Virus record (IMG/VR): IMGVR_UViG_3300047510_003405
Span: 1 to 50,558 of that record
Direction: 5' to 3' (one strand)
Length of the DNA: 50,558 nucleotides
Source of the DNA: a virus
Of this stretch, positions 3,698 to 42,222 are shown in pieces (position 1 is the stretch's first letter; every line of letters starts with the position of its first letter). Position numbers and translations under genes: made by a program. The notes below the pieces were generated by a model that was given only the letters and a program-made list of their open reading frames with translations, did not search any database and was not told where the DNA came from.

Positions 3698-4063
3698 TTA
3701 CGGAGTTTCAGCTGGCGGCTCTGTCGGTTGTTCAGGCATCGGCGGCATCTGGGGCGGCTTGAAGGTGAATTGAGGCACTGCGCCGGGGTCATCATCTGCA
3801 TCACCCTCGAACAACGGACTGTCATCGTAGTCCGTCAGCAGCTTGTAGAAGGTTGCTCTGGGGTCTTCACCCATTCGCCAAAACGGAACAATCATTCGCT
3901 CAACGTACAGTGGATTGCTTGCCGTCTCACGCGCTTCGGCGCTTGGGTATACCTCTACGTGGAGATAAATCTCACTCATATTGGCATCTACCTCAACTCG
4001 CCGAAGCCGATGGTACTGAGCGTTGATGCCGAACTGGGTCGGGCGGTCCTTAATGATGGCCAT
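3698..4063 (-). CDS. Hypothetical protein with proline-rich C-terminus
   Basis: A 121-residue protein with no family I recognise. Residues 1-95 look like a compact alpha/beta domain (KDRPTQFGINAQYHRLRRVE near the start, RMIVPFWRMGEDPRATFYKL later). The last 25 residues are Pro/Glu/Gln-rich (PPQMPPMPEQPTEPPAE) and probably disordered. A clear ribosome site (AAAGGA) precedes the ATG. It follows the desaturase gene by 10 bases and so shares its transcript. No transmembrane segment or signal peptide is seen. Confidence 0.6.
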   Translation of the reverse strand: MAIIKDRPTQFGINAQYHRLRRVEVDANMSEIYLHVEVYPSAEARETASNPLYVERMIVPFWRMGEDPRATFYKLLTDYDDSPLFEGDADDDPGAVPQFTFKPPQMPPMPEQPTEPPAETP

Positions 4064-4073
4064 GACGGTCCTT

Positions 4074-4802
4074 TCAGTTGGTACGGATCAGTTTAATAAA
4101 AGCAGCGCCTAGGTCTAGGTGCCACCAGCGGGTTTTGAACTTGCTGCGCCCAGGGTGGTCGTGGTGAGTTCCGTGATGCCATTCACCAGCTGCAGGTAGA
4201 ACGAACTCAAGCGCCGGAAGGTCGCGCGGTCTGCCGCCCCAGTGGCCGATGACCTGGTGAATAGCGCCAGCAATGTGCGAACTTCCCATAGGCATCAGAT
4301 AGAGAAACAAGAAGGCTACCGGCGAAATAAGCAAGCCGACTATTGCGAAGCCAATCCAAAGCCCAGCACCATTGCGATGAACAAAGTCCGTCACAGGATC
4401 GCCAACCATGCAGCGCAGACGCTCTTTAACCATTGGCACATTGCGAAACCCCTTGTAGAACAGGTAAGTCCAGTTGGTGTAGTGAGGGTCGCGGTCAGTA
4501 TCGGAGCGGGCATGATGGGTGGTGTGCATCGTTGCCCATGCGTAGGGCGATCCGTACAGCAGTGGCACACTATAGAAAGCCATGACTCGGTGCCAGAGCG
4601 GGGTGGTCTTGAACGCACCGTGAGAGAAGTAGCGATGCAGGCCGACCGACACCATCAGGGTATGCCAGAGGTGCATGAGAAACCAACCAAGCAGCCACCA
4701 AGCGCTTGCTTGTCCGGTAGTCAGCAGCCAGACGCCACACGCCACGCTTACACAGCCAACAATGTGTGCGACTGAGATAGTCCAAGATGGAAACTTAAGC
4801 AC
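4074..4802 (-). CDS. Membrane-bound fatty acid desaturase (acyl-CoA/acyl-lipid type)
   Basis: Di-iron desaturases put a double bond into membrane acyl chains. All three histidine boxes are present (residues from the GTG start): HRYFSH at 56-61, HTTHH at 93-97 and GEWHHGTHH ending near 214, plus an extra HQVIGH. The spacing between boxes one and two and four hydrophobic stretches match delta-9-type enzymes; at 242 residues it is slightly compact. I chose GTG at 4800-4802 because GGAG sits 6 bases upstream; a TTG at 4814 is in frame but has a poorer site. The start overlaps the upstream stop by 8 bases and the next gene follows by 10, so it is transcribed with tail genes. It probably alters host membrane lipids during infection; substrate and electron donor are not visible. 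Confidence 0.9.
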   Translation of the reverse strand: MLKFPSWTISVAHIVGCVSVACGVWLLTTGQASAWWLLGWFLMHLWHTLMVSVGLHRYFSHGAFKTTPLWHRVMAFYSVPLLYGSPYAWATMHTTHHARSDTDRDPHYTNWTYLFYKGFRNVPMVKERLRCMVGDPVTDFVHRNGAGLWIGFAIVGLLISPVAFLFLYLMPMGSSHIAGAIHQVIGHWGGRPRDLPALEFVLPAAGEWHHGTHHDHPGRSKFKTRWWHLDLGAAFIKLIRTN

Positions 4803-5334
4803 GAGAGTCTCCAATCAAGAACCCGTAGGTCGGAGCGGTGACGCTCATAGACGTTCCGTCGGCGGTGAATGATTCACCCGCAGAAAAGTTTCCAACTTTC
4901 CCAAGACAAACAAGAACTCGCTGGCCGCTTGGAAAGATGACGTTCTCATCTTCGGTAATTCTAAGGGCTTCCACTTGGGGAAGCGCTCCTCGATTTGCTG
5001 TCCAGTTGAAGCACCAAAACTCTAATTCACTATCTGCCAAAGTAGTAACGGCACCCTTAGGTACATCTGTTCGCTCTGGTGAAAAAAGCCCAGGAACTCT
5101 GTCTGGATAAACGGTTCCATCTTCACCTCTAACAGTACCTCTACCACGAACCGTAAGTGTGATATTGGGCGCCTTTGCGCGCTCTATGACCTTAGAGGAA
5201 GTGGTAATTAACTTCGTTCCAGAAGGCATAACATGCCGATAGACGAGCCAGTTGAACGCATAGATTGGAAATATTTGAATTGTCCCCTGCCCCGCTGGGT
5301 ATGAACCACTCCATTCGCGCCTTGAGACCGTCAT
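4795..5334 (-). CDS. Hypothetical beta-rich tail-region protein, possibly cupin-like
   Basis: A 179-residue protein, probably beta-rich, with RGRGTVRGEDGTVYPDRVPG and VFPSGQ-like turns that loosely recall a double-stranded beta-helix (cupin) core. No metal-binding His set is obvious, so an enzymatic role is not supported. GGAG lies just upstream of the ATG, 3 bases after the previous stop. Its 3' end overlaps the desaturase start, so the two are translationally coupled. It could be a small tail or fibre-associated protein or a partner of the desaturase; the sequence does not say which. Confidence 0.55.
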   Translation of the reverse strand: MTVSRREWSGSYPAGQGTIQIFPIYAFNWLVYRHVMPSGTKLITTSSKVIERAKAPNITLTVRGRGTVRGEDGTVYPDRVPGLFSPERTDVPKGAVTTLADSELEFWCFNWTANRGALPQVEALRITEDENVIFPSGQRVLVCLGKVGNFSAGESFTADGTSMSVTAPTYGFLIGDSRA

Positions 5335-5337
5335 GCT

Positions 5338-5724
5338 TTACTCCGTCGTGTAGATGATTACAGAGCCAGGCACAACTGAATTGTCCTTTGGGTAGGCATC
5401 TTTAACGACCTTCAGTCGCGTGTAAAACGGCTCAACACGAGGCAGCGCGTTGTCATCCATTGCGTGCCAAAGCATGTCCATCTGCTCTCGTACTGACGGA
5501 TATGCGTCCAGACGAGCTTTGCGGTAATCCATATCAATTACCTGAACGCGCCCGCCAGCAAGAATCTGACCCGTCTGCGGATCAATCGCGTCGGTTTCGG
5601 GGTTAGCTTCGCCCTCAACTACAAACTCTCCAGGCTCGATAGCTTGGAGATTAAGAGCTTCATCTTGGCAGATGCCGGCTCGGATGATCTCTCCGGCCGA
5701 ATTATGAACAACAAAGTGCTTCAT
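5338..5724 (-). CDS. Small tail-fibre-associated protein of the YPSVREQMDMLWHA type
   Basis: A 128-residue protein. Its C-terminal half has a pattern often seen next to phage tail fibre genes: R-x-x-AYPSVREQMDMLWHAMDD, then FYTRLKVVKDAYPKDN. The N-terminal half (HFVVHNSAGEIIRAGICQ) resembles a small beta domain seen at the start of such proteins. The role of the family is not well defined; fibre assembly or a chaperone function is usually suggested. Its start overlaps the J stop (ATGA), so translation is coupled to J. Confidence 0.6.
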   Translation of the reverse strand: MKHFVVHNSAGEIIRAGICQDEALNLQAIEPGEFVVEGEANPETDAIDPQTGQILAGGRVQVIDMDYRKARLDAYPSVREQMDMLWHAMDDNALPRVEPFYTRLKVVKDAYPKDNSVVPGSVIIYTTE

Positions 5725-8700
5725 CTCTTCAACAACAGTACGTTGAGCCTCATGGTTCCGGCGTAATTTGCGCGCGTCAGGGAGATTGTGTGACTCCCCT
5801 CTGACGGGGTGATGATAATGCTTCCAGTTGCGACGCCATCATATGTAAAGCTGGCAATGGTAGGACCATAGACATCCGCTCCATACTTTCCGCCAGATAC
5901 AAAGGTTGGCGGGCCAAGATAGTATGTCACAAAGATTGCTGATGCGCCACTTGGCACCGTAATTGTTATAGAAGCTGTAGCGCCTGTACTTGTGGCCGTT
6001 GTCGCCTCAGAGGTTGCGCCTCCAATAATCGAGTTTGTGTTGATGACATTGGCCGAAACTGTGCCGCTAAAGGTAGCTGTACCGTTGACAATGGAAAAGC
6101 CAGGTGCATAGACGTTGCCGCTAGCTTCGACTTGAAAGTATCTCCCGTCATTAGCATTGCCCAGCAGCAAACCACTTGGCCCTAAATGGAAGCCGTTATT
6201 TCCTGAGGCGGGCCAGGCATACGCCGTGTACGCACCGCCGTTAATTGCTCCACGCAGCGCTACCTCGTTGAACGTCGCCGTCCCGCCCTTGTTGATCTGC
6301 CATCCAGCCGACGAGCTGTAGTTCGTCGACTGAATCGTGTTGGCAATCTGCGCATCACCAATGGCGGTATTGGCGATATACGTCGAGACATTCGTCGAGC
6401 TGATTTGGTTTCGTCCGCTGGGGGAACCCATTGCAAGCAACGCAGCCAAAGACGGCTCAGTACCGTCACATAGCTCTACGCGAGGATCAAAGAAGTCCTG
6501 ATAAGTGTTGGCTGCGTTCGTGTAATACTGATACGAGCGGTGAACAGAGGACCCCTGTCCAGAGACCCAGCGGTAGTCCGTTCCCGCAAGAATACGAACC
6601 CCGGTCGAGCCTCGGTATATGCCACTCATATTTTGCTGGCCGCCGGTATAGGTCGACGGCAAGACATACCCTACGAACAAATACCACTCACTTGCAATAA
6701 AATTTGCACGCCCTTCGGCGTTGAAGTAAGGGTTGGTATTTACACCACCGCCAATATTGTTAACCGTACTTCCGCCAACGCCAAGATACGCAGAGCCGGT
6801 TGTGCCGCCAAAGCAGCGAATCCACACCGTGAATCGGTACATCTTGGTGTGATCAATAGGGAAAGAGTTAGTGTCCCAACCACCTTCGGCGCTCGTTCCT
6901 GCCGCGCTACCACTTCTGGCACGCCAATGTATTCCACGGCTACCATCCGGAAGCGTGTCATAGGCGATGTAGTTTTCTCCGCCTGAAGAAGGAGCATTTT
7001 GCGGAAAACCAGTTTGACCTCCGCTGGAACCAAAAACCCACTTGCCGGGGTCCAGCAGATTCTTACCAAGGCGAGTTAAACTCCCGCCGCCACCCGTGAG
7101 GTTGCCAGTGGCGTCAATCCCGATCCGGTAGTTAGCAACAGTCGTACTGTCGCCTGAACCAATACCAGTTAATTGACCCGCAGCGGTAATAGTGATGTTG
7201 CTGTTCGAGACGGATGTGCCGCCACCTGACGAGACGCCCTGGATCAAACCACTGCCGTCAATATAGGTGTTGTTAGCGTAATTTGCGGGTCTGCCTGTTC
7301 CCACAACCTTTGTCCAATCAGCTGCGGGATATGTGTCCGTTACAGCGGCGCTGTACTGATTAGTTCCAGTACCGGACGTTATCTGCGTTGTATCAAATGA
7401 GAGCGTCCAGCCAGTTGACCACAGTGAGGCAGTAACACTTTGGTATCCGGCAAAGAAGTCTCTCACCCTTGCCTGCGGGTAAGCCCATGTCTCGTTGTAA
7501 TTTCCGATCCAAATACAGCACTTTGTACCGTCATGGCCAAAGTAAACTGGATACTCGACGTTACTTCCGCCAATAACTCGAGCGGACACGTTATACCAAC
7601 TCGCAGCGGGCGCGTAGTTATATCCACCAATTTCAATCGTACACATCAAGCCGGCCGAGTATTCATATATCTCAACCGTGAAGCGCATCATGGTGCCTGT
7701 CCATGATTGCGGAAGTCGAATCTTCAGCGCACCAGTCTTAGTGGAGTCGCTTGTTGTGTATAGGGCGCCTGCAGGCGCCCGAACAATAGAGTCTTGATTG
7801 TTGGCAACAGATACGCCAGCTCCAGTACCAATACCTTGAATGTTTCCACTCGAATCAACGGATATATTTGAGTTCAACCACCCTGAAGCCGGTGTGATAT
7901 TGCTGGAGGTAAGCGGAGTACCGGCAGCCAGAATGACGTTACCAATGGCGTCTTTAATGCTCAGGCCGCGAGTGTCAATCTGAGTGGCGGTAATTGAGCC
8001 ATCAACGATCAGGTCCGCACCGTTGATATATTGATCAAGGCGCAGGTCTTGACACGCCTGCAGAGCTACAGTTGTGCCATTGCCGCTGTAGTTGAACCAG
8101 CAACCAATTTTGCAGTACCGGACGTTGGCAGGGATTGGTCTACCTGTGTCGGGTCCAAAAGAACCGCCTAGACGCTGGAACACAAGAGCGGTCGTTGGTA
8201 CTCCGCCATACGTATATCCAGAACGACTACCTCCCCAACCCGTGCTTGCCCCGTCAACATACCCATATGAACTGTCGTAGAACTCTACGAACAGGTACAT
8301 ATTCCTATCTGCAGCAGCGGCTCTATAAAGCAGAGCCGTCAACTTGTAGGTCTGCGTCGGATCGATTTCGTAGTAACGATTCGACATAATGGTCTCATTT
8401 TGACCAGTGTCGGAACTTACATACGTAGTACCCTTTGCTCCGCTGGCGGAAGTGCCGCTCTGGTAGAGAACATTAACGGAGCTTCTATCCCAATATGTAT
8501 TGTCAAGAAATGTTGGGTCATCACTCAGAATCGTCAGACCGCCAGTGCTGGTAACCTTGATCTTGTTGGCTGTGATGCTGTTGGCACCAAGACGGTCAGT
8601 GCTGAGTGTGCCCGCAGTGATCGTGCCGGCATCGACGCTTCCGATCTTCGCGCTCGTGATCGTTGCGTTCGCAATGTAGGCGGTGTCAATGTAGGCACCT

Positions 8701-11700
8701 GCCGGAACTGAGACTCCGTTGATCGTCGTCGTCGTATTAGAGACAACAAATGGAAGAGCTTGCGGCGTCGTAGACCAGGCAGAGCCGGTGTAATACTTGG
8801 TGACGGGCGTGCTGCTTGTGTCAATCCAGACGTAGCCCTTGTACAGGTTAGCAGTCGGTGCAGTCGCCTGGGAAACGGAGGGTCCAGCAATCCAGAACTT
8901 GTCGGCGCGAATGCCGAACTCGCTGGTCGGAGTTGCGTCGTTAGCTGTCGAAATCAGGCCAAAACCTGACACATGCCCTGCAACATCAACCTTGATGCCA
9001 TACTTTGCAAAGATATCGCCCGTTTGAGTGGCGCGAGTTGTGATCTCCTGTTGAATGGCAGCACTGTAGGTTTGCGGAGCTGTGCGCCCAATCGTGACCC
9101 AGTCAATCTGAAATACATCTGCAGCCGCAAGTGTTGCACCCAAATCCAGTCGGATTTGGGTGATAGTATTTGTCGTCCAATCCGTTCCGCCAGCTTGTTG
9201 CGTGGACATATCCCATTCCAGCACCACCCACTCATTCAGAATCGTAGTATCGGGAATTACTTTGTAATAAAGGGCACTAAAAGTATGGCCCGCAGTGACA
9301 TAAAAAAGAGTTCCGTCCCACCCACTACCCGCTGTACGCTTCACTCGAGCCCGAACCAGATAGTTTTTGGAACCATCAATCGTAAGTCCGGAAGGCGAAA
9401 AGAAGATTGGATCGCCGCCGCCAGTTGAGGTTAGTGTGACAACGCTATTGGCGGCAGATGCGCTTGCGCTTGTGGCCGTCCACCCTTCAACTCCGCTGTC
9501 GAAATTCCACGCAATACCGGCATCAAAAGCTGTTGCGACCGCCTGAACCTGGCGAATTTCGCTGGCCATCGCACTGTCGGCATTGGCTCGAGCAGTCTGT
9601 TCCGTAGTGATCGCGGCAGTGTTGGCGCTCGTGGATGCACTGAGTGTGTTGACTTGGGTTGAGAGCGACGAGGTCTCGTTGGACCGAGCTGTCTGCTCTG
9701 CGACGATGCTTGCGGAGTTGGCTCCAGCAGATGTGACCAGGGCCGAGAGTTGCTGTACTTCGGCAGAGTTGGCGGTGGCTCGCGCTTGAGCCTCTGCAAC
9801 AAGGCCGGCTGTTGCCGAAGCTGTGTTCGCCGTCAGAATTGAAGACTGTGCGGCCAGCGCTGAGTCGGCAGTGGAGCTTGTTTGTGCTTGTGTTTGCAGT
9901 GCAGCGGCGTTTGCGCCTACAGCCGATGAAAGTGTTGTAGTTTGAGAAGAGGACGCTGTGTCAGCATCTGCGCGAGTCTGTTGCTCCACTACAAGAGCGG
10001 CGGCATTGGTCCCAAAAGCCGAAGCTAGGGATGTCGTCTGCTGAGCGGAGGAAGAGTCGGCATTACTGCGAACTTGCTGCTCTGTGATGATGGCAGAACG
10101 AGCATCACCAACAGAAGCTGTCAGCGCATCGATGCGCCCACTAGCGGCAGAGTCAGCAGTGGCTCGAGTTGTGGCCTCAGTTGTGATCGCCGCAGAGTTT
10201 GTAGAGTCTCCCGAAGTGACGGTGGCTTCTAGCTGCACTCTCAGCGCAGCCTCGGCGGAATCGGCATTTGCGCGAGTGGTGGCCTCTTGCTGAATTGCCG
10301 CAGTATTTGACGCTACCGAAGAAGTCAGCGTCTCAGTCGTCTGCGTTAAAGCCTCAGTTTCCGAAGCTCGAACGATTTGTTCGATCTCCAAGTCCGCACG
10401 AATATCGGCTACATCAGTTGTCTGCGCTGCCGTCAAAGCCGCGATCTGTGATGCCTGTGCAGTAACTTCGCCGTCGAGTGTTTGGACGTCTACCGTCAGA
10501 GCGTTCAAGGCTGAAGCACTCGCCTTATCACCAAGCGCCGTGTTCAGGCTTGTAATTTGACTTGCGAGAGCGGACGTCTCGCTAGACCGTGTAGTGATCT
10601 CAGACGAAAGAGCAGCCGCGTTATTTCCCGTGGCCGCAGCCAGCGCAGTGAGCTGCTGGGCCGATGCCGAGTCGGCCTGTGCGCGAACGGTTTGCTCGAC
10701 GATCAAACCGGCGGCGCTGGCTCCAACATTGGCAGTCAACGCAGAGACTTGCGAGGACAGTGAGGAGTTTTGATCTGCGCGAACTTGCTGTTCCGCCACA
10801 AGACCTGCGGACGTATTGCTTGTCGATGCCGCAAGAGTGACAACTTGCAAACTGGAGGCAGAGTCTGCGTCAGCACGAGTCTGCTGCTCCGTCTGAAGTG
10901 CTGCTCCAGTAGCTGCTGTGTTGGCGGCCAGCGTTGTTACTTGCGACGATGCAGCGCTGTCGGCGTCAGCCCGAGTCTGCTGTTCAGTGACGAGCGTTGC
11001 GGCTGTATTGGCGGTAGATGACGCCAGTGTTGCAATCTGACTCGACGTTGCGCCGTCAGCATCGGCTCGGGTCTGCTGCTCTGTGATGATCGCCGCAGCG
11101 TTTGATCCTACCGACGAGACCAGAGTTGTAAGCTGTCCACTTGTAGCGGAATCAGCATCGGCGCGAGTCGTCTGCTCCACCGACAGCGCTGCCGAGTTGG
11201 TGCTATCGCCCGTTGCGACGGTTGCAGCCAAAGCTACTCGAAGTGCAGCTTCAGCCGAGTCAGCGTCAGCTCGTGCAATTGCTTCCTGTGCGATCGCTGC
11301 GGCGTTTGATGCGAACGAGGCTGTCAACGTCTCTGTCGTTTGTGTCAGAGCTTCTGTCTCGGACGCTCGAACAATCTGCTCAATTTCCAAGTCGGCGCGA
11401 ATGTCCGCAACATCCGTCGTCTGAGCGGCGGTCAGCGCGGCAATTTGCGATGCTTGGGCTGTCACCTCGCCGTCGAGAGTTTGGACATCAACGGTCAGTG
11501 CATTCAGAGCGGAAGCGCTGGCCTTTTCGCCCAGCGTCACCGTCATGGAGCTGATCTGGCTTGCAAGAGCCGAAGTCTCGCTGGAGCGAACACTGACCTC
11601 GTTCAGGATTGCAGCTGCATTGCTTCCTGTCGAAGCCGTCAAGGCTGTAATCTGAGAAGCGGCCGAAGAGTCAGCGTCAGCGCGAGCCTGTTGCTCTACC

Positions 11701-14700
11701 AGGAGCGCCGAAGCGTTCTGTCCAGTAGCGGCCGTCAGACCGTTGATCGTGCTGGAGACACTGCTATCGGCATCAGCTCGCACCTGCTGCTCGGCAAGAA
11801 GACCGGCGCTTGTGCTTGCTGTTTGCGCTGCCAGCGTGGTGACTTGGCTGGCTGACGCCGAGTCCGCATCAGCCCGAGTCTGCTGTTCGAACTGAAGTGC
11901 GGCGTTCGATGAGCTGAATCCTGCAGACAGGCTCGTGACCTGAGAAGACAGGCTGATGTCTTGATCTGCACGAGTCCGCTGCTCTACAACAAGAGCGGCA
12001 CTATCTGCCCCTACTGCTGCCGCCAGCGATGTGACCTGAGCCGATGTGGCGCTATCCGCATCAGCACGAACTTGTTGCTCAACCGTTAGCGCGGAGGAAA
12101 CGATCGTATCGCCTGTGGCAACAGACGCTGCGAGAGAGGTGACTTGAGAGGCAACTGCTGAATCCGCGTCCGCACGGGCTTGCTGTTCGACGGTCAGAGC
12201 CGCAGTGCTTGCGCCAACTGTTGCGGTCAGTCCGGTGATCTGTGAAGACAGAGCGGAGCCTTGGTCAGTCCGTGTCTGCTGCTCTGCTACCAATCCCGCC
12301 GTGTTGCTGGCTGTCGAGCTGGCTAGAGTTGCGACTTGCAGGCTAGAAGCCGAGTCGGCGTCAGCACGAGTCTGCTGCTCTGTTTGAATGGCAGCAGTGT
12401 TACTTCCGGTTGATGAGCCGAGTGTTGCAATCTGTGAGGCTGACGAAGCATCGGCATCTGCACGAGTTTGCTGCTCAACCGTAATGGAAGAAGCGGCTGC
12501 GCCAACAGCACTTGTCAGCGATGTCAGTTGAGACGATGTTGAAGAATCAGCATCGGCACGAACTTGTTGCTCGACCTGGAGCGCTGCAGCGTTGCCTGCG
12601 CTGGTTGCGCTCAGTGATGTGACCTGACCAGATAGAGCTCCATCTGCATCGGCGCGAGTAGTTTGCTCGACGCTGAGAGCCGCTTGACTGGCAGCAATGT
12701 CGCCTTCAGTAGCCGTGACTCGGGCGGCAAGAATGAGCCGCTGAGCCGCTTCAGCTGAATCGCCGTCAGCTCGAGCAGTTGCCTCTTGTTGGATTGCGGC
12801 AGCGTTTGAGTTAAAGGAAGCTGTCAGAGTCTCCGTCGTCTGGACAAGAGCCTCGGTTTCTGCCGCTCGAACGAGCGTCTCGACCTCGATTGCAGCTTCC
12901 AGCGCCGCGACATCAGTTGTCTGCTCGGCAAGAAGCTGGCTAATCTGCTGTCCTTGCGCAACGACGACACCATCAATCGTCTGTACTTGGACATCCAGAG
13001 CGTTCAGCGCCGTTACCGAAGCCTTATCATCGAGCGCTACCGTAATACTTGTGATTTGAGAGGCAAGCGCGGCTGTTTCGTCAGAGCGAACAGTCTGCTC
13101 GGACAGAATCGCAGCGGTGTTGCTTCCTGTTGTCGCATTGAGCGCAACTATTTGAGATGCTGTCGAGGAGTCTGCATCGGCGCGAACTTGTTGCTCCGCC
13201 AGAATGTTTGCATTCGCCTGGCCAAGCGCCGCTGTCAGACCCGCTGTTGTGGCTGAGAGCGCCAGGTCAGAAGTAGCCCTTACCTCTTGCTCGGACAACA
13301 GACCTGCCGTTGTTTGTGCTGTAGCGGCAGCAAGAGTCGTAACTTGTTGAGCAGAGGCAAGATCGGCATCGGTTCGAACCTGCTGCTCCACTTGCAAGGC
13401 AGCATTGTTGCTGGCGCTGCTAGCGGCCAGAGATGTCACCTGTGAAGACAGAGAGGAGTTTTGATCAGCCCGAGTCTGCTGCTCGATGGTCAACGCTGCA
13501 GCATTGGCTCCGGTAGAAGCCGCAAGACCCGCCACCTGAGACGAGAAAGCACTGTCCGCATCCGAACGGACTTGCTGTTCTGTGACCAGACCCGCCGAGG
13601 TCTGTCCTGCCTGGGCGCTCAGCGTTGTGATTTGATTCGCAACCGCCGAATCGGTGTCAACTCGAGCCTGTTGCTCTTGAACGATAGCCGCTGAGTTGAT
13701 CTGAAAGCCCGTATCTGCCGATACCTGCAGACCCGTGATCAGAGAGGCTTGAGCTGCATCTGCCGTAGCGCGAGCGTTCTGCTCTTGGAGAATGCCTGCG
13801 GTTGCATCCCCAACCTGAGCGGCCAGGATACTGGTTTGTTGGCTAAGAGCACTTGTTTGATCGGCACGAACTTGTTGCTCGACCTGGAGCGCTGCCGCAT
13901 TTGTAGCATTAGTAGCTGCAAGGTTCAGGAGCTGCCCTGCGGTCGCACTATCGGCGTCAGCACGAGCCTGTTGCTCCGCTGTGATTTCTGCTGCGGTATT
14001 GGCAGTGGCGGCCGCAAGTGTTGTGATTTGAGTCGCAACGCTTGAATCAGCGTCCGCACGCGCTTGCTGCTCGACGGTGAGGGCTGCTGCGTTGGCACTG
14101 TCTCCCAGGTCAACACGAGCACTCAGGGTTGTCAGTTGGGATGATGTTGCAGCATCTGCATCAGCGCGAGCTTGCTGCTCCGCGCTCAATCCGGCGCTGG
14201 TTGCTCCAGTAGCGGCAACCAGACTCGTCAGCTGTCCGGAGAAGCTCGAATCCGAGTCGGCCCGAACTTGCTGCTCTGCGGTAAGTCCAGCGACGTTTGT
14301 TCCGACAGCCGCTGACAAGCCAGTGATCTGGCCCGCAGTTGCAAGATCGGCATCGGTACGAGCTTGTTGTTCGACAAGGAGTGCAGCGGCATTGCTGCCA
14401 AAGCCTGATGCCAGGTTTGTGACTTGGCTGGCTGTAGCACTATCGGCATCTGCACGAGCGTTCTGCTCAACAAGAATCGCGGCAGCATTTTCTTCCGACG
14501 TTGCGGCAAGTGAAGTCAGTTGTGACGAAATCGCACTGTCCGACTCAGCCCTGACTTGTTGCTCAACTGCCAGTGCGGCTGATACGAGTGTGTCGCCCTG
14601 AGCAACAGATGCCGACAAAGCTGTGACTTGTGATGCAACAGCGGCGTCGGAATCAACTCGAGCCTGCTGCTCGACAGCCAAAGCAGCGTTGTTTGCACCA

Positions 14701-17700
14701 ACATTGGCGACAAGACCAACGATCTGGGACGAGAGAGCGGAATCCTCATCGGCTCTTGCAAGTTGTTCAGCGACCAAGCCCGCAGAGGCTGCGGCAGTCG
14801 CAGCAGCCAATGTGGTCGATTGCTGAGCAAAAGCAGAATCTGCATCGGCACGAGCCAGTTGTTCCGCTTGAATGCCAGCGCTGTTGTCGCCCAAACTGGC
14901 GGCAAGGCTTGACACCTGAGAAGCGCTTGCAGCGTCGGCCGAAGCTCGGACATCTTGCTCGGCACTCAAAGCTGCGGCAGAAGTCGCTGTGCTAGCCGCA
15001 AGAGAAAGAACCTGAGAGGCGGCAGCGCTGTCAGCATCAGCGCGAGCTTGTTGCTCAACGAGGATTGCAGCGGCGCTACTCTGGTCACCAATCGTGACTT
15101 GAGCGCTCAGGCTGGTAACTTGCGAAGAGAGAGCTGAAGTCTCGTCAGCCCGCGCCTGTTGTTCTGTTGCCAGCGCTGAACTATTGGCCGCCGCTGTTGC
15201 TCCGAGACTGTTGATCTGCAGAGATGCCGCGCTATCGGAGTCCGCACGGACTTGCTGCTCAGAAACAAGACCTGCAACTGTATTGGCACTCTGCGCAGCC
15301 AAAGTTGCCACTTGCGTGCTTGCGGCACTATCTGCGTCCGCTCGAGCCTGCTGCTCGATCTGAATCGCCGCCGCGTTAGAGCTGGCCGACGCCGTAAGAA
15401 CTCCGACTTGGGTCGAAAGAGCACTGTCGGAGTCCGCACGAGTCTGCTGCTCGACGATCAGCGCAGCAGCATTTGTGCTATCGCCTGCGGCTACCGAAGA
15501 AGCGAGTGAAGTAACCTGACTTGCCGTAGCACTATCAGCGTCGGTACGAGCCTGTTGCTCAACGAGCAATGCAGCCGAGTTTGCCGCAGTTGTTGCCGCA
15601 AGAGCACTGGTCTGCGCAGCAGATGCCGCGTCGGCGTCTGCTCTTGCCTGCTGTTCAACTTGAACCGAAGCTGCATTTGCCTGAGTTGCCGCATACAGTC
15701 CGGAAAGTTGGGATGCGGTAGCAGAATCAGCGTCAGCTCGGGTCTGTTGTTCTGTTTGAATTGCCGCAGTGTTAGCTGCGTCCGTCGCACTCAGTTGCGA
15801 TAGCTGGCTAGCAACTGCGCCATCAGCATCCGAACGGGTCTGTTGCTCCGTTTGGATTGCAGCAAAGCTAGCTGCTGTTACTGCACTCAATTGAGATACT
15901 TGAGCGGCTGCAGAACTATCCGCATCTGCACGGACTTGTTGCTCTGTTACCAGAGCGGCGGCGTTAGATGCGATGCCCAGCTCCGCAGAATCAACCCGAG
16001 CACTGAGGATCACTCGTTGAGCAGCTTCTGCGGAATCAGCAGTAGCTCGAGCAAGCGCCTCATTTTGGATTGCAGCGGCATTTTCGCTCGTCTGAGCCTG
16101 CAGAAGAGTAGTTGTGCTAGTCAGTGCCTCTGTTTCGGAAGCTCGAACGAGTTGCTCGATCTCTAGAGCCGCCTGAAGCTCCTCTGTTCCAGTATTGATC
16201 GATGCCGAGAGTGCGGCAATCTGCTGACCCTGGGCTGTAAGCTCTCCGTCAATTGTTTGGATATCCAAAGCAAGGCTGTTTACCGAGCTAACGCTAGCTT
16301 TGTCGTCCAGAGCAACGCCGATGGCCGTTACTTGGGATGCAAGCGCTCCGGTCTCGCCCGCACGAACCGCAACTTCACTCTGGATTGCTGCAGTATTGGC
16401 ACCTACTGCGGCTGCCAATGAGGTTGACGCGGTCGCTGCGGCAGAGTCCGAATCGCTTCGGACCTGCTGTTCAACGATGAGTGCGGCGGCGTTCTGACCA
16501 ACTGCCGCACCTAGAGACACCGTCGCGGTAGCGTTTGCAGAATCCGCATCGGCCCGAACACCTTGTTCAACGGTCAGCGCTGCTGCGGATGCAGCAGAGG
16601 CAGCGGCAAGAGTTGCCGAGACTCCGGCAGAAGCCGAGTCTGCGTCAGCGCGAGCTTGCTGTTCTGTATGAATTGCAGCGGCGTTGCCTGCTTGGGCGGC
16701 GATCAGCCCCGAGGAAATAGCCGCAATGGCGCTATCAGCTGTTGTTCTCTGATCCACCTCGGAAAACACTGCCGCAACTGCCTGACCGGCCGTCGCGTCA
16801 ACAGCATTCAGAGCCGCTTGAATGGTGCTATCAGCGGTCGCTCTTGTCGCAATCTCGGCTACAACCGAGTTGGCGATTTCGGCCGACCGCACTTCGAACA
16901 CATCTGCCCTAGCCGCATTCAGGGAATCCGCGAGCGCTCGCGCATCGATCTCCGTCTGAAGCGATGCCGAGATGGTCGCCGCACGAATATCGGTCGCAGC
17001 ATCTGCCGCTGCGAAAATCGTATCCGCAACTTCGCGAGCGTTCTTCTCTTGAAGGACGGCAGCCGCAGCATCTTGCGCGCGAATCTCTGTTGCTTGGGTA
17101 GCAGCAGCAATCGTGCTGTCCGCTTGCGCTCTTGCGCTCTGCTCCGCCAGCAGAGAGTTCGCCGCGTCCTGTACCTGCGTGCCAAGCGTCGCAGTTACTG
17201 CACTGATCGTCGAATCCGCAAGGGTGCGAGCATTGAGCTCATCGGCAAGAGCTGCGCTTGTAGCCTGTGCTTGTGCTGTTGTGGCGGCGTTAGCGGCAGA
17301 AAGGAGTGCGTCCGTCGCTTCTCTGCTCGCCTGCTCGGCGATGAGATTCGTCGCTGCTTCCGCAATAGCCGCACTGAGAGCTCCCGAGGTTGCACTCAGG
17401 GTCGCATCTGCAACCGTCCTGGCGTTTTGCTCCTGAAGAAGCGCGATTGCGGCGTCTTGGACTTGAGTTCCAATTACCGTCGATGTTGCCGCAAGAACTG
17501 CATCGGATGCCGCTCGCGCACCAGCCTCCGCGTCAATCGAAGACGTAGCATTAAGAAGCTGCGTACCCAGTGCCGAGGCAACAGATGTCAGCGAAGAGTC
17601 TGCTGCAAGCCGATCTCTGGTCTCTGCAATGAGAGAGGCGGCTGCATTTTGTACAGCTGCCGCAGTAGAGTTATTCGCCGCCGAGATTACAGAATCGGCA

Positions 17701-20700
17701 ACAGAACGTGCATTCTGCTCCTGAAGAAGCGCGTTCGCGGCATCTTGAATCTGGGTGCCGATGACGGCATTTGTGGCGGACAGAATTGCATCACTACTCA
17801 GCCTAGCATCTGTCTCGCTTGCCAGAGCAGAAGCGGTACTCGCGAGTTGAGCGGCAAAACTTGCGTCTGTAGCTGCAAGCGCAGCCTCCGCAAGGCTTCT
17901 GGCATTCTGCTCTTGAACCAGAGATGCTGCGGTTGCCTGCGTGGAGCTGGCACCCGCTGCTGCAGCGGCAGTAAGAATGCTGTCTGCGGCTGCTCGTGCA
18001 TTGATTTCGGTAGAGAGAGATTGATTTGTGGAAGACGCAGCGGAACTGAGTGCAGAGTCAACCTGTGCGAATATCGCGTCTGCTGTGGAGCGCGCATCAA
18101 TCTCTTGAGCCAACGCTAGTGCGCTATTTGCCGCTTCTAAAGCAACTCGTGCGTTGACCGAGCCGGCACCATTGCCGTCGATCAGGTCGAGTCGGTCGTT
18201 CAGACCCTGGTACAGCTCGCCCTCTGTGATAGCTCCACTGAGCAGATCGAGCAAGAAAGCAGGATCGGCTACAGGCGTGCCCACAACACCATTCACGCCC
18301 TGGTACGGACCAGCAATGTCCGACACACTGAGGAAGCGGACCCAGTAGTAGTAGGTGCCGGTGTTACCTACATAGTCGATGTAGGAGTTCGATGCCGTGA
18401 CGTCGATGAGAAGCGCTTCGCCCAAAATATTCGACGTCGCACGCCAGATTTCTGCAACTTGGTGGTTGGAGTAAGTTGGCGCATCCCAGCTGACAACCAC
18501 ACCGCCAACAATCGACTTTGTTGTGACATTGGTTGGCGCTGGAGGGGGCGTTGGATCGTATGTGCCTTCGGGAAGGTCAAGCGCCGACCCATTGACAGGG
18601 CCTACATAGCTGGTCGTGTTGCCGTAGACATCAAACGCACGAATCCAGTAGAAGCGTTCACCGTCAGCCGCATCCACCGTCATGTCGGTGTAGGTAGACG
18701 AGGCTGTTGTGTCGATGTGCTGTGCGCTTCCGATTGCGTTCGACGCATTGCGCCAGATTTCGACACCAGAGAAGTCCTTGTTGCCTGCGTTTGTCCAGGT
18801 CAGCGCAATACCGCTAAAGATGGGACGAATCGTCAGGTCTGTCGGCAGATCACTGTTGGCAACTTTGCCAACAACGATGTGGTTGATTCGAGCCGTCTTT
18901 GAACGCCTGCCCAGAGGGTTGATTGCGGTGATGGCAATCTCGTACTCGCCCAAACTAGGATTGACGATCTCAAAGAAGTTCTGGTTCTCAATCGTGAGTT
19001 GAGTCCAGTTAGAGCCTCTATCGACACTGACGTTTCGATAGGCAATTTCATGCCGACCGGCATTGCTGTACCACGAAATCGAAAGGCGAATTTCGGGCTG
19101 ACCGAGGTCATTCAGAAGCTGTCGCTCAACGGTCAGAAGGCTTTCCGGCGTATCAACAAACTTCGGATCGATGATGGAGGTTGTCTGCGTCTGCAGAGCA
19201 AGCCCCAGCTCAATGGCTCCAAACTTCGATGGATTGTGCTCAACCGCCGAAATCTCGAATGTGTTGTCCTCGCCCTGAGCGATTCCAATGACTCGCGCCA
19301 ACATCGGCGACAGCGTGCCCTGGGACGCCATCCATACAGCGTCCGCGACCGGCAGTTGCGTCAGTGCCTGCGCCCAGGTGACGTTAAGGAAGGTTCCGTT
19401 GGTTTGGTCAAGAGTGCGCTCGACAAATGTGCCATCCGGCATCATCAGAGAGATGACGGTTGTTCCAGCGGTCAGCTCGATGGCAGAGTCGAGAGTAGCG
19501 CCCGTTGTAGTGCAAGAAACCAGCCTGCCGCCGAAGCGCTTGCCTGACTTGTCGCGGTCGTGAATCTTGATGATTTCGCCTGGCGACAAGAATGCAGAAT
19601 CGACGCCAACTTTGAACTGAATGACATCAGATTCGTAGCGCTCGGTATAGAGAATCCACTTACCGACACGAGCGGCTTGACCACGCGATGTACAGCCAAA
19701 AGCCAGCGTATCGGTACGGCGAATACCGAAGCGCTGGATAAGTTCAGGGTCTTCGACGTACTCAACCTTGCGCTTATAGTTGTCCGACGGGTCGTTCCAT
19801 GTCACATGAACGACGCTATGCCGATCTTTTCTCGCACTTCCGGTGTACGAGAACATGCCATCCACTACGTTGGCATTGGTGTAGAGCATTGAGGGGTCTG
19901 CAGGCGAATCCTGCATGAGACCCACAACTCCACCATCCCAAAAAGCCATACCTCGGAATGCCGAGGTGATGTCCATGATCACCTTGTAGGCGTCGGCAGC
20001 ATTCTGAATGACTGTGTTGATTGTGAAGCGAGGCTCTGTCCCGCCTTGCCCATCTGGTACAAGCTCGTCGCAATACTTGCCGATTGTGTAGAGGGCCGCC
20101 TTGTCTACCTGCGATGGCGTCAGGTAATTTCCAAGACCATAACGGTTGTTCGTTAGAACGTCATACAGTACCCAGGCCGGGTTGTTGCTGTACGCTGTCT
20201 GAAAGGTACCGTTCCAAACTCCCGTATAGACTCGAGTGACAGGGTTGTAGTTGGACGGCACCTGAATCTTCAGGCCGTCAACCAGATACGCCCGTGACGG
20301 GATTGAGTTGAACTGCTGAGCATCGATTCGAACGCCAACGAGTGCGGAATTCGGGTAGTTGATGTTCAGCGAAGTGATCTCAGTGAACGATTCAATCCAT
20401 GTCTCGTTTACCGTGAGCGAATCTGCCGCATCGGCTGTAAGGCGAGTGACGCGAATTTGAGCGCTTGTGCGCGGCGTCGGCAAGCTCAGAATGTGGCTTC
20501 GCTGGTACTTCGAGCGAGTCTTGCCACTGATCGTGACTGTAGGACTGCGCTTCCAGTACGATGCGTTACCCTGAGCCGGACTGATCGAGGTTCCAGAGTC
20601 AAGTCGAACCGAAACTGGCACAAATCGAATCGTGCTGTAGACGCTCTCAACAGGCATCGACAAAGATGCGCGAGTCTTGAATGCGGGAGCCTCGCTATAG

Positions 20701-21356
20701 CTGTTCTCCCAGGCGCCGATAACCTCAACCGTCTTTGTCTCGCCCAGATTTACCCAGGAGGTGCCGTTGAACTCTTGCGGCTGAAAGACGATTTGGCCAA
20801 CACCGTTGCCTGTGCTGGTTGCGGTAATTGAGGCTGTTAGTTTCGAAGAGCCAGCAGGTGCGGTAACTTGCCAGTAACCGCCGACTTGGGACCATGTGAC
20901 ATCATCTACATATGCCGCATCGACGGCGACATCCTGAAATGGGCCGCCATCTGTTGAAAGTTGAAATTTGTATTCAACGGTCGTGCCGTTAATATCGCCG
21001 TTTTCCGAATTGGTCTTCGAAAGTCCAGGGATATTGATAATGACCCGCGCCAAGTCGGCTGCGGAGTTGGTGACTGCAAACGTATAAGGAGTGAGAAAGC
21101 TCAGCTTGACGCCAATGTTGTAAGGCGTCTCGACCGAGTTGCCAAAACCCGTCAGTGGTGACTGATTATTTGTTCCGTAGGTACCGGCAGTCGTGACGCC
21201 TTTGAAGTTGTAGGTGCCGTCAGCGTTTCGAAGCGGGGTCTCGTTAAAGAAGATCGACCGATCGCCATTTACAAGACCTGCAATCTCGCCTTCACCCAAA
21301 AGGTCAAGAATGGACAGCAGCGCTCGCGACTGTAGGGAGTCTTTAACTTCGTTCAT
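5721..21356 (-). CDS. J: Giant J-type tail tip / host-specificity protein, 5,211 residues
   Basis: This is the central tail tip protein, several times longer than lambda J (about 1,130 residues), and would contact the host surface and trigger DNA release. Residues 1-800 are J-like (start: MNEVKDSLQSRALLSILDLL). Residues about 825-1030 hold two fibronectin-III-like domains. Residues about 1065-3930 are a long array of 32-residue repeats, probably coiled coil. The C-terminus resumes with a sugar-binding-like beta domain (about 3950-4080), a DUF1983-like phrase (KYGIKVDVAGHVSGFGL, about 4115), a lambda-J-like ITSAKIGSVDAGTITAGTLS segment (about 4240), further beta domains, and a compact domain ending near 5211. 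It follows the gpI-like gene, as in lambda. The frame is intact over 15.6 kb. Confidence 0.9.
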   Translation of the reverse strand: MNEVKDSLQSRALLSILDLLGEGEIAGLVNGDRSIFFNETPLRNADGTYNFKGVTTAGTYGTNNQSPLTGFGNSVETPYNIGVKLSFLTPYTFAVTNSAADLARVIINIPGLSKTNSENGDINGTTVEYKFQLSTDGGPFQDVAVDAAYVDDVTWSQVGGYWQVTAPAGSSKLTASITATSTGNGVGQIVFQPQEFNGTSWVNLGETKTVEVIGAWENSYSEAPAFKTRASLSMPVESVYSTIRFVPVSVRLDSGTSISPAQGNASYWKRSPTVTISGKTRSKYQRSHILSLPTPRTSAQIRVTRLTADAADSLTVNETWIESFTEITSLNINYPNSALVGVRIDAQQFNSIPSRAYLVDGLKIQVPSNYNPVTRVYTGVWNGTFQTAYSNNPAWVLYDVLTNNRYGLGNYLTPSQVDKAALYTIGKYCDELVPDGQGGTEPRFTINTVIQNAADAYKVIMDITSAFRGMAFWDGGVVGLMQDSPADPSMLYTNANVVDGMFSYTGSARKDRHSVVHVTWNDPSDNYKRKVEYVEDPELIQRFGIRRTDTLAFGCTSRGQAARVGKWILYTERYESDVIQFKVGVDSAFLSPGEIIKIHDRDKSGKRFGGRLVSCTTTGATLDSAIELTAGTTVISLMMPDGTFVERTLDQTNGTFLNVTWAQALTQLPVADAVWMASQGTLSPMLARVIGIAQGEDNTFEISAVEHNPSKFGAIELGLALQTQTTSIIDPKFVDTPESLLTVERQLLNDLGQPEIRLSISWYSNAGRHEIAYRNVSVDRGSNWTQLTIENQNFFEIVNPSLGEYEIAITAINPLGRRSKTARINHIVVGKVANSDLPTDLTIRPIFSGIALTWTNAGNKDFSGVEIWRNASNAIGSAQHIDTTASSTYTDMTVDAADGERFYWIRAFDVYGNTTSYVGPVNGSALDLPEGTYDPTPPPAPTNVTTKSIVGGVVVSWDAPTYSNHQVAEIWRATSNILGEALLIDVTASNSYIDYVGNTGTYYYWVRFLSVSDIAGPYQGVNGVVGTPVADPAFLLDLLSGAITEGELYQGLNDRLDLIDGNGAGSVNARVALEAANSALALAQEIDARSTADAIFAQVDSALSSAASSTNQSLSTEINARAAADSILTAAAAAGASSTQATAASLVQEQNARSLAEAALAATDASFAAQLASTASALASETDARLSSDAILSATNAVIGTQIQDAANALLQEQNARSVADSVISAANNSTAAAVQNAAASLIAETRDRLAADSSLTSVASALGTQLLNATSSIDAEAGARAASDAVLAATSTVIGTQVQDAAIALLQEQNARTVADATLSATSGALSAAIAEAATNLIAEQASREATDALLSAANAATTAQAQATSAALADELNARTLADSTISAVTATLGTQVQDAANSLLAEQSARAQADSTIAAATQATEIRAQDAAAAVLQEKNAREVADTIFAAADAATDIRAATISASLQTEIDARALADSLNAARADVFEVRSAEIANSVVAEIATRATADSTIQAALNAVDATAGQAVAAVFSEVDQRTTADSAIAAISSGLIAAQAGNAAAIHTEQQARADADSASAGVSATLAAASAASAAALTVEQGVRADADSANATATVSLGAAVGQNAAALIVEQQVRSDSDSAAATASTSLAAAVGANTAAIQSEVAVRAGETGALASQVTAIGVALDDKASVSSVNSLALDIQTIDGELTAQGQQIAALSASINTGTEELQAALEIEQLVRASETEALTSTTTLLQAQTSENAAAIQNEALARATADSAEAAQRVILSARVDSAELGIASNAAALVTEQQVRADADSSAAAQVSQLSAVTAASFAAIQTEQQTRSDADGAVASQLSQLSATDAANTAAIQTEQQTRADADSATASQLSGLYAATQANAASVQVEQQARADADAASAAQTSALAATTAANSAALLVEQQARTDADSATASQVTSLASSVAAGDSTNAAALIVEQQTRADSDSALSTQVGVLTASASSNAAAIQIEQQARADADSAASTQVATLAAQSANTVAGLVSEQQVRADSDSAASLQINSLGATAAANSSALATEQQARADETSALSSQVTSLSAQVTIGDQSSAAAILVEQQARADADSAAASQVLSLAASTATSAAALSAEQDVRASADAASASQVSSLAASLGDNSAGIQAEQLARADADSAFAQQSTTLAAATAAASAGLVAEQLARADEDSALSSQIVGLVANVGANNAALAVEQQARVDSDAAVASQVTALSASVAQGDTLVSAALAVEQQVRAESDSAISSQLTSLAATSEENAAAILVEQNARADADSATASQVTNLASGFGSNAAALLVEQQARTDADLATAGQITGLSAAVGTNVAGLTAEQQVRADSDSSFSGQLTSLVAATGATSAGLSAEQQARADADAATSSQLTTLSARVDLGDSANAAALTVEQQARADADSSVATQITTLAAATANTAAEITAEQQARADADSATAGQLLNLAATNATNAAALQVEQQVRADQTSALSQQTSILAAQVGDATAGILQEQNARATADAAQASLITGLQVSADTGFQINSAAIVQEQQARVDTDSAVANQITTLSAQAGQTSAGLVTEQQVRSDADSAFSSQVAGLAASTGANAAALTIEQQTRADQNSSLSSQVTSLAASSASNNAALQVEQQVRTDADLASAQQVTTLAAATAQTTAGLLSEQEVRATSDLALSATTAGLTAALGQANANILAEQQVRADADSSTASQIVALNATTGSNTAAILSEQTVRSDETAALASQITSITVALDDKASVTALNALDVQVQTIDGVVVAQGQQISQLLAEQTTDVAALEAAIEVETLVRAAETEALVQTTETLTASFNSNAAAIQQEATARADGDSAEAAQRLILAARVTATEGDIAASQAALSVEQTTRADADGALSGQVTSLSATSAGNAAALQVEQQVRADADSSTSSQLTSLTSAVGAAASSITVEQQTRADADASSASQIATLGSSTGSNTAAIQTEQQTRADADSASSLQVATLASSTASNTAGLVAEQQTRTDQGSALSSQITGLTATVGASTAALTVEQQARADADSAVASQVTSLAASVATGDTIVSSALTVEQQVRADADSATSAQVTSLAAAVGADSAALVVEQRTRADQDISLSSQVTSLSAGFSSSNAALQFEQQTRADADSASASQVTTLAAQTASTSAGLLAEQQVRADADSSVSSTINGLTAATGQNASALLVEQQARADADSSAASQITALTASTGSNAAAILNEVSVRSSETSALASQISSMTVTLGEKASASALNALTVDVQTLDGEVTAQASQIAALTAAQTTDVADIRADLEIEQIVRASETEALTQTTETLTASFASNAAAIAQEAIARADADSAEAALRVALAATVATGDSTNSAALSVEQTTRADADSATSGQLTTLVSSVGSNAAAIITEQQTRADADGATSSQIATLASSTANTAATLVTEQQTRADADSAASSQVTTLAANTAATGAALQTEQQTRADADSASSLQVVTLAASTSNTSAGLVAEQQVRADQNSSLSSQVSALTANVGASAAGLIVEQTVRAQADSASAQQLTALAAATGNNAAALSSEITTRSSETSALASQITSLNTALGDKASASALNALTVDVQTLDGEVTAQASQIAALTAAQTTDVADIRADLEIEQIVRASETEALTQTTETLTSSVASNTAAIQQEATTRANADSAEAALRVQLEATVTSGDSTNSAAITTEATTRATADSAASGRIDALTASVGDARSAIITEQQVRSNADSSSAQQTTSLASAFGTNAAALVVEQQTRADADTASSSQTTTLSSAVGANAAALQTQAQTSSTADSALAAQSSILTANTASATAGLVAEAQARATANSAEVQQLSALVTSAGANSASIVAEQTARSNETSSLSTQVNTLSASTSANTAAITTEQTARANADSAMASEIRQVQAVATAFDAGIAWNFDSGVEGWTATSASASAANSVVTLTSTGGGDPIFFSPSGLTIDGSKNYLVRARVKRTAGSGWDGTLFYVTAGHTFSALYYKVIPDTTILNEWVVLEWDMSTQQAGGTDWTTNTITQIRLDLGATLAAADVFQIDWVTIGRTAPQTYSAAIQQEITTRATQTGDIFAKYGIKVDVAGHVSGFGLISTANDATPTSEFGIRADKFWIAGPSVSQATAPTANLYKGYVWIDTSSTPVTKYYTGSAWSTTPQALPFVVSNTTTTINGVSVPAGAYIDTAYIANATITSAKIGSVDAGTITAGTLSTDRLGANSITANKIKVTSTGGLTILSDDPTFLDNTYWDRSSVNVLYQSGTSASGAKGTTYVSSDTGQNETIMSNRYYEIDPTQTYKLTALLYRAAAADRNMYLFVEFYDSSYGYVDGASTGWGGSRSGYTYGGVPTTALVFQRLGGSFGPDTGRPIPANVRYCKIGCWFNYSGNGTTVALQACQDLRLDQYINGADLIVDGSITATQIDTRGLSIKDAIGNVILAAGTPLTSSNITPASGWLNSNISVDSSGNIQGIGTGAGVSVANNQDSIVRAPAGALYTTSDSTKTGALKIRLPQSWTGTMMRFTVEIYEYSAGLMCTIEIGGYNYAPAASWYNVSARVIGGSNVEYPVYFGHDGTKCCIWIGNYNETWAYPQARVRDFFAGYQSVTASLWSTGWTLSFDTTQITSGTGTNQYSAAVTDTYPAADWTKVVGTGRPANYANNTYIDGSGLIQGVSSGGGTSVSNSNITITAAGQLTGIGSGDSTTVANYRIGIDATGNLTGGGGSLTRLGKNLLDPGKWVFGSSGGQTGFPQNAPSSGGENYIAYDTLPDGSRGIHWRARSGSAAGTSAEGGWDTNSFPIDHTKMYRFTVWIRCFGGTTGSAYLGVGGSTVNNIGGGVNTNPYFNAEGRANFIASEWYLFVGYVLPSTYTGGQQNMSGIYRGSTGVRILAGTDYRWVSGQGSSVHRSYQYYTNAANTYQDFFDPRVELCDGTEPSLAALLAMGSPSGRNQISSTNVSTYIANTAIGDAQIANTIQSTNYSSSAGWQINKGGTATFNEVALRGAINGGAYTAYAWPASGNNGFHLGPSGLLLGNANDGRYFQVEASGNVYAPGFSIVNGTATFSGTVSANVINTNSIIGGATSEATTATSTGATASITITVPSGASAIFVTYYLGPPTFVSGGKYGADVYGPTIASFTYDGVATGSIIITPSEGSHTISLTRANYAGTMRLNVLLLKR
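9570..18150 (-). repeat. Coding array of about 90 degenerate 96-bp (32-residue) repeats within J
   Basis: The protein repeat is roughly A-A-L-x-V-E-Q-Q-x-R-A-D-A-D-S-A-x-A-S-Q-V, then a linker of about 11 residues, every 32 residues (34 where a GDS or similar is inserted). Towards the N-terminal end of the array the units are more diverged (EQNARSVADS and AEIATRATADS forms). Four longer spacer modules (DDKASV...DVQTLDGEV...EIEQLVRASETEAL, about 82 residues) interrupt it at 16117-16360, 12838-13085, 11336-11582 and 10330-10583. Heptad-like hydrophobic spacing suggests a trimeric coiled-coil stalk. DNA-level identity between repeats is much lower than protein identity. Confidence 0.9.
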
Positions 21357-41420: not shown

Positions 41421-42079
41421 GGGTTCTCCTTGTAGCCTTCCGGGGACCGAACGATTTCGATCTTTTCTCGGTAGCGTTTGTTGATGTAAAGGTTTGGCGC
41501 CAGGTCGGCAACCATGTCGGTATGGGTTGTAGCTACCATCAAAGTAGCCTTCATCTTGCGAGCCACCTTTTGCAAGTTGAATGCAATGACCTTGGCCGTG
41601 GTTCGATCCAATACCGCCAAGAACTCATCGCAGACCCAGACGTTTGCGCCAGACTCAATGATCTTAGCCAGGCGAAAGCGGTAGCGCTGACCATCGGAGA
41701 GTTCTTGCGGCTTGCGAACGAAAAGGTAGGCGTCGTTCAGTCCGGCGATTGATAGAAGCGTGAGCGCCTCGGCTGTATTGCTTCCAATTTGATCGATCAA
41801 GGGGCGCGTTAAATCGAGCGTTACCTCGTCAATGTCCGATATATGGTGCCCCGCTTCGGACATCTGCTTCTTCAACTCGCGCAGGGCCAGTGACTTTCCT
41901 GAGCCCGACTGCCCTGTGATGTAAACGACATCGCCTTGCTCAATCTCGACAGCCTGCTTGTCAAAGACGACAAATTCCTTGTCATCCAGGCCCAAACCGA
42001 AGGCCTCAGCGATCTCCAGCACTCGATCAGAACGATCGACTTTGCAGACGAAGCGCTTGTCCAGTACGTACTGTGTCAT
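41417..42079 (-). CDS. Stand-alone ABC ATPase, COG2401-like
   Basis: A 220-residue soluble ABC-type ATPase. Walker A GQSGSGKS at 56-63, signature LSDGQRYR at 127-134 (where transporters have LSGGQ), Walker B VWVCDEF at 147-153, and H-loop His186. The phrase RLAKIIESGANVWVCDEFLA is close to what I recall of COG2401 ATPases, which are usually fused to a GNAT domain; here the GNAT is a separate gene three positions downstream. No transmembrane partner is present, so transport is unlikely. Coupled by ATGA at both ends. Confidence 0.75.
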   Translation of the reverse strand: MTQYVLDKRFVCKVDRSDRVLEIAEAFGLGLDDKEFVVFDKQAVEIEQGDVVYITGQSGSGKSLALRELKKQMSEAGHHISDIDEVTLDLTRPLIDQIGSNTAEALTLLSIAGLNDAYLFVRKPQELSDGQRYRFRLAKIIESGANVWVCDEFLAVLDRTTAKVIAFNLQKVARKMKATLMVATTHTDMVADLAPNLYINKRYREKIEIVRSPEGYKENP

Positions 42080-42222
42080 TGACGCCTCCGAGCTCGACGC
42101 CAGTCATCGATAAAAATGCAGGCGCCTTCCCAGAGCATCAGCAGTATCAGCAGGGTAATAGCAATGCCGGGAATGGCGGACATGGCAAGCAGCCACATCC
42201 AGATTGTCGATATGCAGGTCAC
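42076..42222 (-). CDS. Small single-span membrane protein
   Basis: A 48-residue frame from the GTG at 42220-42222, overlapping the zincin stop (GTGA), with AGGAGGAG just upstream. It ends in TGA overlapping the ATPase start (ATGA), so it is coupled on both sides. A hydrophobic stretch (WMWLLAMSAIPGIAITLLIL) is followed by an Arg-rich end (WRRARRRQ), giving N-out or C-in topology. Function unknown; the perfect coupling argues it is real. Confidence 0.7.
   Translation of the reverse strand: MTCISTIWMWLLAMSAIPGIAITLLILLMLWEGACIFIDDWRRARRRQ

Follow-up and report, generated by a model that had tools for sequence, protein, structure and literature searches.

The desaturase gene of the window, by which we mean the whole 50,558-nucleotide stretch of viral DNA analysed (IMG/VR record IMGVR_UViG_3300047510_003405), is half of a two-gene module. 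The other half is an overlapping gene for a protein with an EFWC motif, hereafter the EFWC protein, and it is a near-constant partner of the desaturase. The genes of the module and its flanks are:

4074..4814, minus strand: membrane desaturase, predicted to be a di-iron acyl desaturase (SCD/DesA type), 246 aa, TTG start
4795..5334, minus strand: EFWC protein, an undescribed, tentatively cupin-like, all-beta partner of 179 aa that overlaps the desaturase start and carries an invariant Cys108
5338..5724, minus strand: small tail-fibre-associated protein, phrog_1787 family
5721..21356, minus strand: central tail fibre J / host-specificity protein, 5211 aa, upstream of the EFWC-desaturase module
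3698..4063, minus strand: unknown 121-aa protein, the next gene downstream of the desaturase, weak phrog_5084

The two-gene module and its setting

An earlier note on this DNA had placed the desaturase at 4074-4802. The gene itself is real, but 4802 is an in-frame GTG four codons after the TTG at 4814, which is the conserved start and is replaced by ATG at the same position in several relatives. The overlap with the upstream gene that the note described is present from either codon (20 bp from the TTG and 8 bp from the GTG), and 10 bp separate the desaturase from the next gene at 4063, as it had also stated. That reader overlooked the upstream overlapping gene as a near-constant partner. The downstream gene at 3698..4063 is common to the closest relatives only, and a phrog_1787-type gene is the usual upstream neighbour of the pair in lambda-type relatives.

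The placement of the desaturase inside a tail operon is confirmed by a PHROG match to the central tail fibre J (E 2.6e-276) and by lambda-like tail genes; the desaturase lies three genes downstream of the J-type tail-tip gene. The lambda-type tail module of the window comprises a tape measure, minor tail proteins and a tail assembly protein, and is followed by the J gene, the phrog_1787-type gene, EFWC, the desaturase, unknown genes, and holin-like and endolysin-like genes. We infer from the overlapping gene order in this operon that the desaturase and the EFWC protein are expressed late. A near-identical 72.5-kb contig extends the window record and adds genes for a class II ribonucleotide reductase, ThyX and an RNA ligase. 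The window portal is closest (about 55%) to those of SSU5-type and other phages. No integrase was found in the window record or in its longer counterpart; one is present in five related contigs. A tyrosine integrase gene directly follows the EFWC-desaturase pair in L128 and L137, which puts the pair near a likely attachment site in some temperate relatives. Separately, the J protein contains 32/36-residue repeats from about residue 1400 to 3800 with a motif of about E-Q-x-x-R-A-D. These repeats look old, since no tandem array is seen in the DNA of the J gene.

Two EFWC profile scans of IMG/VR recovered 20 and 22 contigs, and the desaturase is adjacent in all 42; the profiles were built from desaturase neighbours and reach only similar EFWC proteins, so that free-standing distant relatives could escape them. 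From the opposite direction, a desaturase profile scan of IMG/VR found 113 relatives, of which 79 loci were kept. Together with L013, L014 and the Pelagibacter phage Mosig, these loci form 49 desaturase clusters at 90% identity, and EFWC adjoins the desaturase in 41 of them. A fixed rule detected 38 of the adjacent cases; the other three (L013, L014 and L140) escaped it on account of ORF calling or of an additional desaturase. L179 has its EFWC gene two ORFs away, L194 has it downstream of the desaturase, and none was detected in seven desaturase clusters. Divergence in one protein is correlated with that in the other (Mantel r 0.87, 0/999 permutations).

In lambda-type, podovirus-like and larger contigs alike, the pair comes after tail-fibre or host-specificity genes and a gene for a small protein, and its adjacency holds across these phage types while the phage background changes. 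Clear cases of differing backgrounds are L014, a prophage of Hydrogenophaga intermedia, and L013, a contig of 108 kb. At the L013 locus (5890-8374), an EFWC-type protein is followed by two desaturases, tandem and overlapping, and then by a protein of 314-330 aa with an HxxxDG motif that appears acyltransferase-like by eye and has no Pfam or PHROG match; lysis-type genes, also identified by eye, come after it. Enzyme genes usually follow the pair in another group of relatives (L171, L174, L178, L181-L184, L187, L188, L163, L164 and L167). They encode GNAT acetyltransferases, a PP-loop (SGGIDST) ATPase-like protein and several proteins resembling oxygenases, and only the GNATs among these neighbours exceeded the Pfam cut-off. 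It is possible that this neighbourhood is a phage tailoring cluster.

The EFWC gene encodes about 180 aa and overlaps the desaturase start in the first set of relatives. Its product has no Pfam family, no PHROG match and no match among 50,697 isolate phage records. The structural model is confident and all-beta (pLDDT 92.4), and its PDB matches are to cupin and double-cupin folds, weakly (TM up to about 0.5), so that the protein may be called cupin-like with caution. The best match among viral structures is an unnamed phage protein (TM 0.78). The metal-binding His/Glu set of cupins is absent, as no His is invariant in the EFWC alignments; some cupins carry no metal, and the lack of this set is thus compatible with a cupin fold. 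The invariant residues are Gly and Cys108, the latter kept in 42 of 42 diverse members. The L013 protein is a remote member of the family (88% probability; E 0.03 with an HMM built without L013). Two further candidates were not counted: a 221-aa protein after the tail fibres of cyanophage P-HM2, which came from the EFWC fold search and is unrelated in sequence, and a protein upstream of the L170 desaturase that looks EFWC-like by eye (EFHC) and gained no support from hhalign.

The desaturase and its origin

Sequence, fold and selection all bear out the earlier description of a complete membrane desaturase with three intact histidine boxes. The boxes are H60RYFSH65, H97TTHH101 and H214GTHH218, and H191 lies outside them. 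All 51 viral sequences compared have the patterns HxxxxH, HxxHH and HxxHH, and each of H60, H65, H97, H100, H101, H191, H214, H217 and H218 is invariant among them. These nine residues align with the di-iron metal-site histidines of SCD1, and their metal role is assigned by this comparison. The note had described the box spacing as delta-9-like; boxes 1 and 2 give a gap-free alignment with human SCD1. At the position of SCD1 Asn265, most viral members have Gln, Thr or Asn.

The window protein matches stearoyl-CoA desaturase in phmmer (1.6e-7), and a profile of 20 viral sequences matches SCD1 more strongly (3.3e-16, residues 37-242). The AlphaFold2 model (pLDDT 94.5, pTM 0.90) contains the helical membrane fold of SCD1, and SCD1 entries are its only PDB matches below E 1e-3 (TM 0.74-0.78). 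The likeness to SCD1 (PDB 4ZYO, 4YMK, 6WF2) extends to the fold, the three boxes, the gap-free box 1-2 region and the nine histidines. Identity is about 20%, however, and the window protein has 246 aa against 318-339 in the solved SCD1 chains, with a shorter N-terminus, shorter cytosolic parts and Gln187 at the SCD1 Asn position.

The window protein does not match PF00487 at E 0.01, and its homologues in L013, L014 and Mosig exceed the gathering cut-off of that family. The C-terminal box region matches the DesA equivalog NF049918 (3e-8), at 33.1 bits against a cut-off of 400 bits. By this score, the protein is a superfamily relative of DesA and not DesA proper; it shares the C-terminal box region with the bacterial DesA type (NF049918, PF00487) and differs in belonging to a separate, deep viral clade. 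Relatives exist at 55-87% identity, and the desaturase is under purifying selection (pairwise dN/dS 0.03-0.21 for those pairs where dS is estimable). The ORF is not a chance one, because it has such relatives, low dN/dS, a profile match to SCD1 and a fold match to SCD alone. By analogy, the reaction type, acyl desaturation with O2 at a di-iron centre, is well supported.

Desaturases had been called rare in phages, which is true of isolates (1 of 50,697 records matches) and does not extend to metagenomic viruses, given the 113 relatives in IMG/VR. The single isolate match is the FA_desaturase of Pelagibacter phage Mosig EXVC030M (MT647606; 27.7% identity), which has no EFWC gene and a very long branch in the tree. 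It is surrounded by genes for an Asp/Arg hydroxylase-domain protein, an aminotransferase, a dioxygenase and a methylase.

The earlier note had proposed a phylogeny to see whether the gene came from the host. When 50 viral and 24 cellular desaturases were placed in a maximum-likelihood tree, a single branch (support 100/100) divided the viral from the cellular set; the claim is limited to the sampled lineages, because the cellular sequences were collected with viral patterns and long branches occur among the viral ones. Because of this separation, recent capture from a sampled host lineage appears unlikely. Among 399 genomes of the phylum of Hydrogenophaga, the Hydrogenophaga prophage gives the sole strong desaturase match (345 bits, against 107 for the next best), and EFWC occurs in this prophage only. 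One Hydrogenophaga prophage likewise stands out when the desaturase is sought in 401 genomes of the family, and a plasmid search with the desaturase yielded distant desaturases whose identity over most of their length is about 29% or less. The near-constant pairing with EFWC behind the tail-fibre genes of dozens of very different viruses suggests an old, virus-owned tool for remodelling host membranes, not a recent host gene.

Viral desaturases are already known as a kind of enzyme. They have been published for cyanophages (Roitman 2018, as cited in PMC7300359) and for sea-ice and cryopeg brine viruses (PMC7300359). These desaturases share intact His motifs with the window family, and two cryopeg clades, A and C, are likewise without a microbial sequence. 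The passages of PMC7300359 considered here mention neither an EFWC partner nor a fixed tail-fibre position. Two sea-ice/cryopeg viruses with desaturases were reported active (PMC10405475), and Lake Baikal viruses of Nitrospirota carry an acyl-CoA desaturase (PMC7678222). A literature search for a desaturase with a cupin in viral contigs returned nothing. Within the literature covered, the EFWC partner, the fixed position and the deep virus-only clade appear to be new.

Proposed function and its rivals

The gene probably encodes a di-iron acyl desaturase of the membrane, compact and owned by the virus, which works with the EFWC protein in late remodelling of the host membrane. Both proteins would be made late in infection. 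The desaturase would reside in the inner membrane, with redox proteins of the host as its electron source, and use O2 to introduce a delta-9-like double bond into saturated acyl chains, either those of host lipids or those of acyl-CoA/ACP. The EFWC protein could be a soluble partner that presents or gates the substrate, replacing cytosolic parts that the short desaturase lacks, and the outcome would be an altered, more fluid envelope around virion assembly and lysis. A search of nine viral records for a Fer2 ferredoxin gave none, so the electron donor may be a host protein or a protein of another type. The evidence would accommodate any of the three roles suggested in the earlier note, namely a more fluid membrane for lysis, help with DNA entry, and superinfection exclusion. 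Points against this explanation are that hydroxylases have the same fold and metal site as desaturases, that the window protein lacks a PF00487 match, and that the residue at the SCD1 Asn265 position varies among viral members. Annotated genes for an acyl carrier protein and a phosphopantetheinyl transferase in cyanophage P-HM2 (L120:18917-19411 and 41648-42106) hint at acyl chemistry in another phage.

Several phage types carry the pair directly behind tail-tip or host-specificity genes, a position that would also fit an envelope-modifying moron that alters the outer surface of the host, for example the acyl chains of lipid A or lipoproteins, and blocks superinfection or the re-adsorption of progeny to debris. 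In lambdoid phages the lom or cor genes adjoin J, and several relatives of the window are temperate, with the integrase of L128 and L137 placed directly after the desaturase. Accessory-gene hot spots occur at tail-fibre ends in general, however, and the pair gave no promoter or terminator signal of its own above chance; we regard this explanation as unlikely. A similarly low probability attaches to a di-iron enzyme that hydroxylates or desaturates some other acyl, amino-lipid or peptide substrate within a tailoring cluster. Such a role would suit the group with PP-loop ATPase-like, GNAT and oxygenase-like genes after the pair, as well as the enzyme-rich surroundings of the Mosig desaturase, but no such extra enzymes lie near the pair in the window and in many relatives, GNATs alone exceeded the Pfam cut-off, and the fold match is to SCD alone. 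An ornithine-lipid-type pathway, drawn from GNAT and hydroxylase-like neighbours, was kept only within this alternative after generic GNAT domains alone had been confirmed.

It is quite doubtful that the pair is instead a dedicated two-component enzyme of the virus. In that case the invariant Cys of the EFWC protein would serve to carry or present the acyl substrate, and the unsaturated product would go into a tail or receptor step, through a change to the virion tail or to the receptor layer of the host, and not into bulk fluidity. In L013, a further desaturase and the HxxxDG protein come after the pair. We consider it very unlikely that the gene is an ordinary, recently host-derived auxiliary metabolic gene for membrane fluidity in the cold, with EFWC merely an unrelated structural tail gene that precedes it. 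This is the model published for viral desaturases of sea-ice and cryopeg brine (PMC7300359), but 50 of 50 viral sequences fall on one side of the 100/100 branch from the 24 cellular ones, and the adjacency of EFWC persists through changes of phage background. Late inner-membrane remodelling by a desaturase-EFWC unit is favoured over the superinfection/adsorption and tailoring explanations.

Earlier work interpreted viral desaturases as host genes that help against cold or salt stress. The lineage described here is virus-only and, in unrelated phage types, retains both its undescribed partner and its place where the tail-fibre cassette ends, which speaks for a viral function tied to assembly, exit or adsorption. 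The pairing offers a function-linked handle on an unannotated family of phage proteins, and it provides a two-gene system for testing lipid remodelling by phages, including a prophage in a named bacterium, Hydrogenophaga intermedia.
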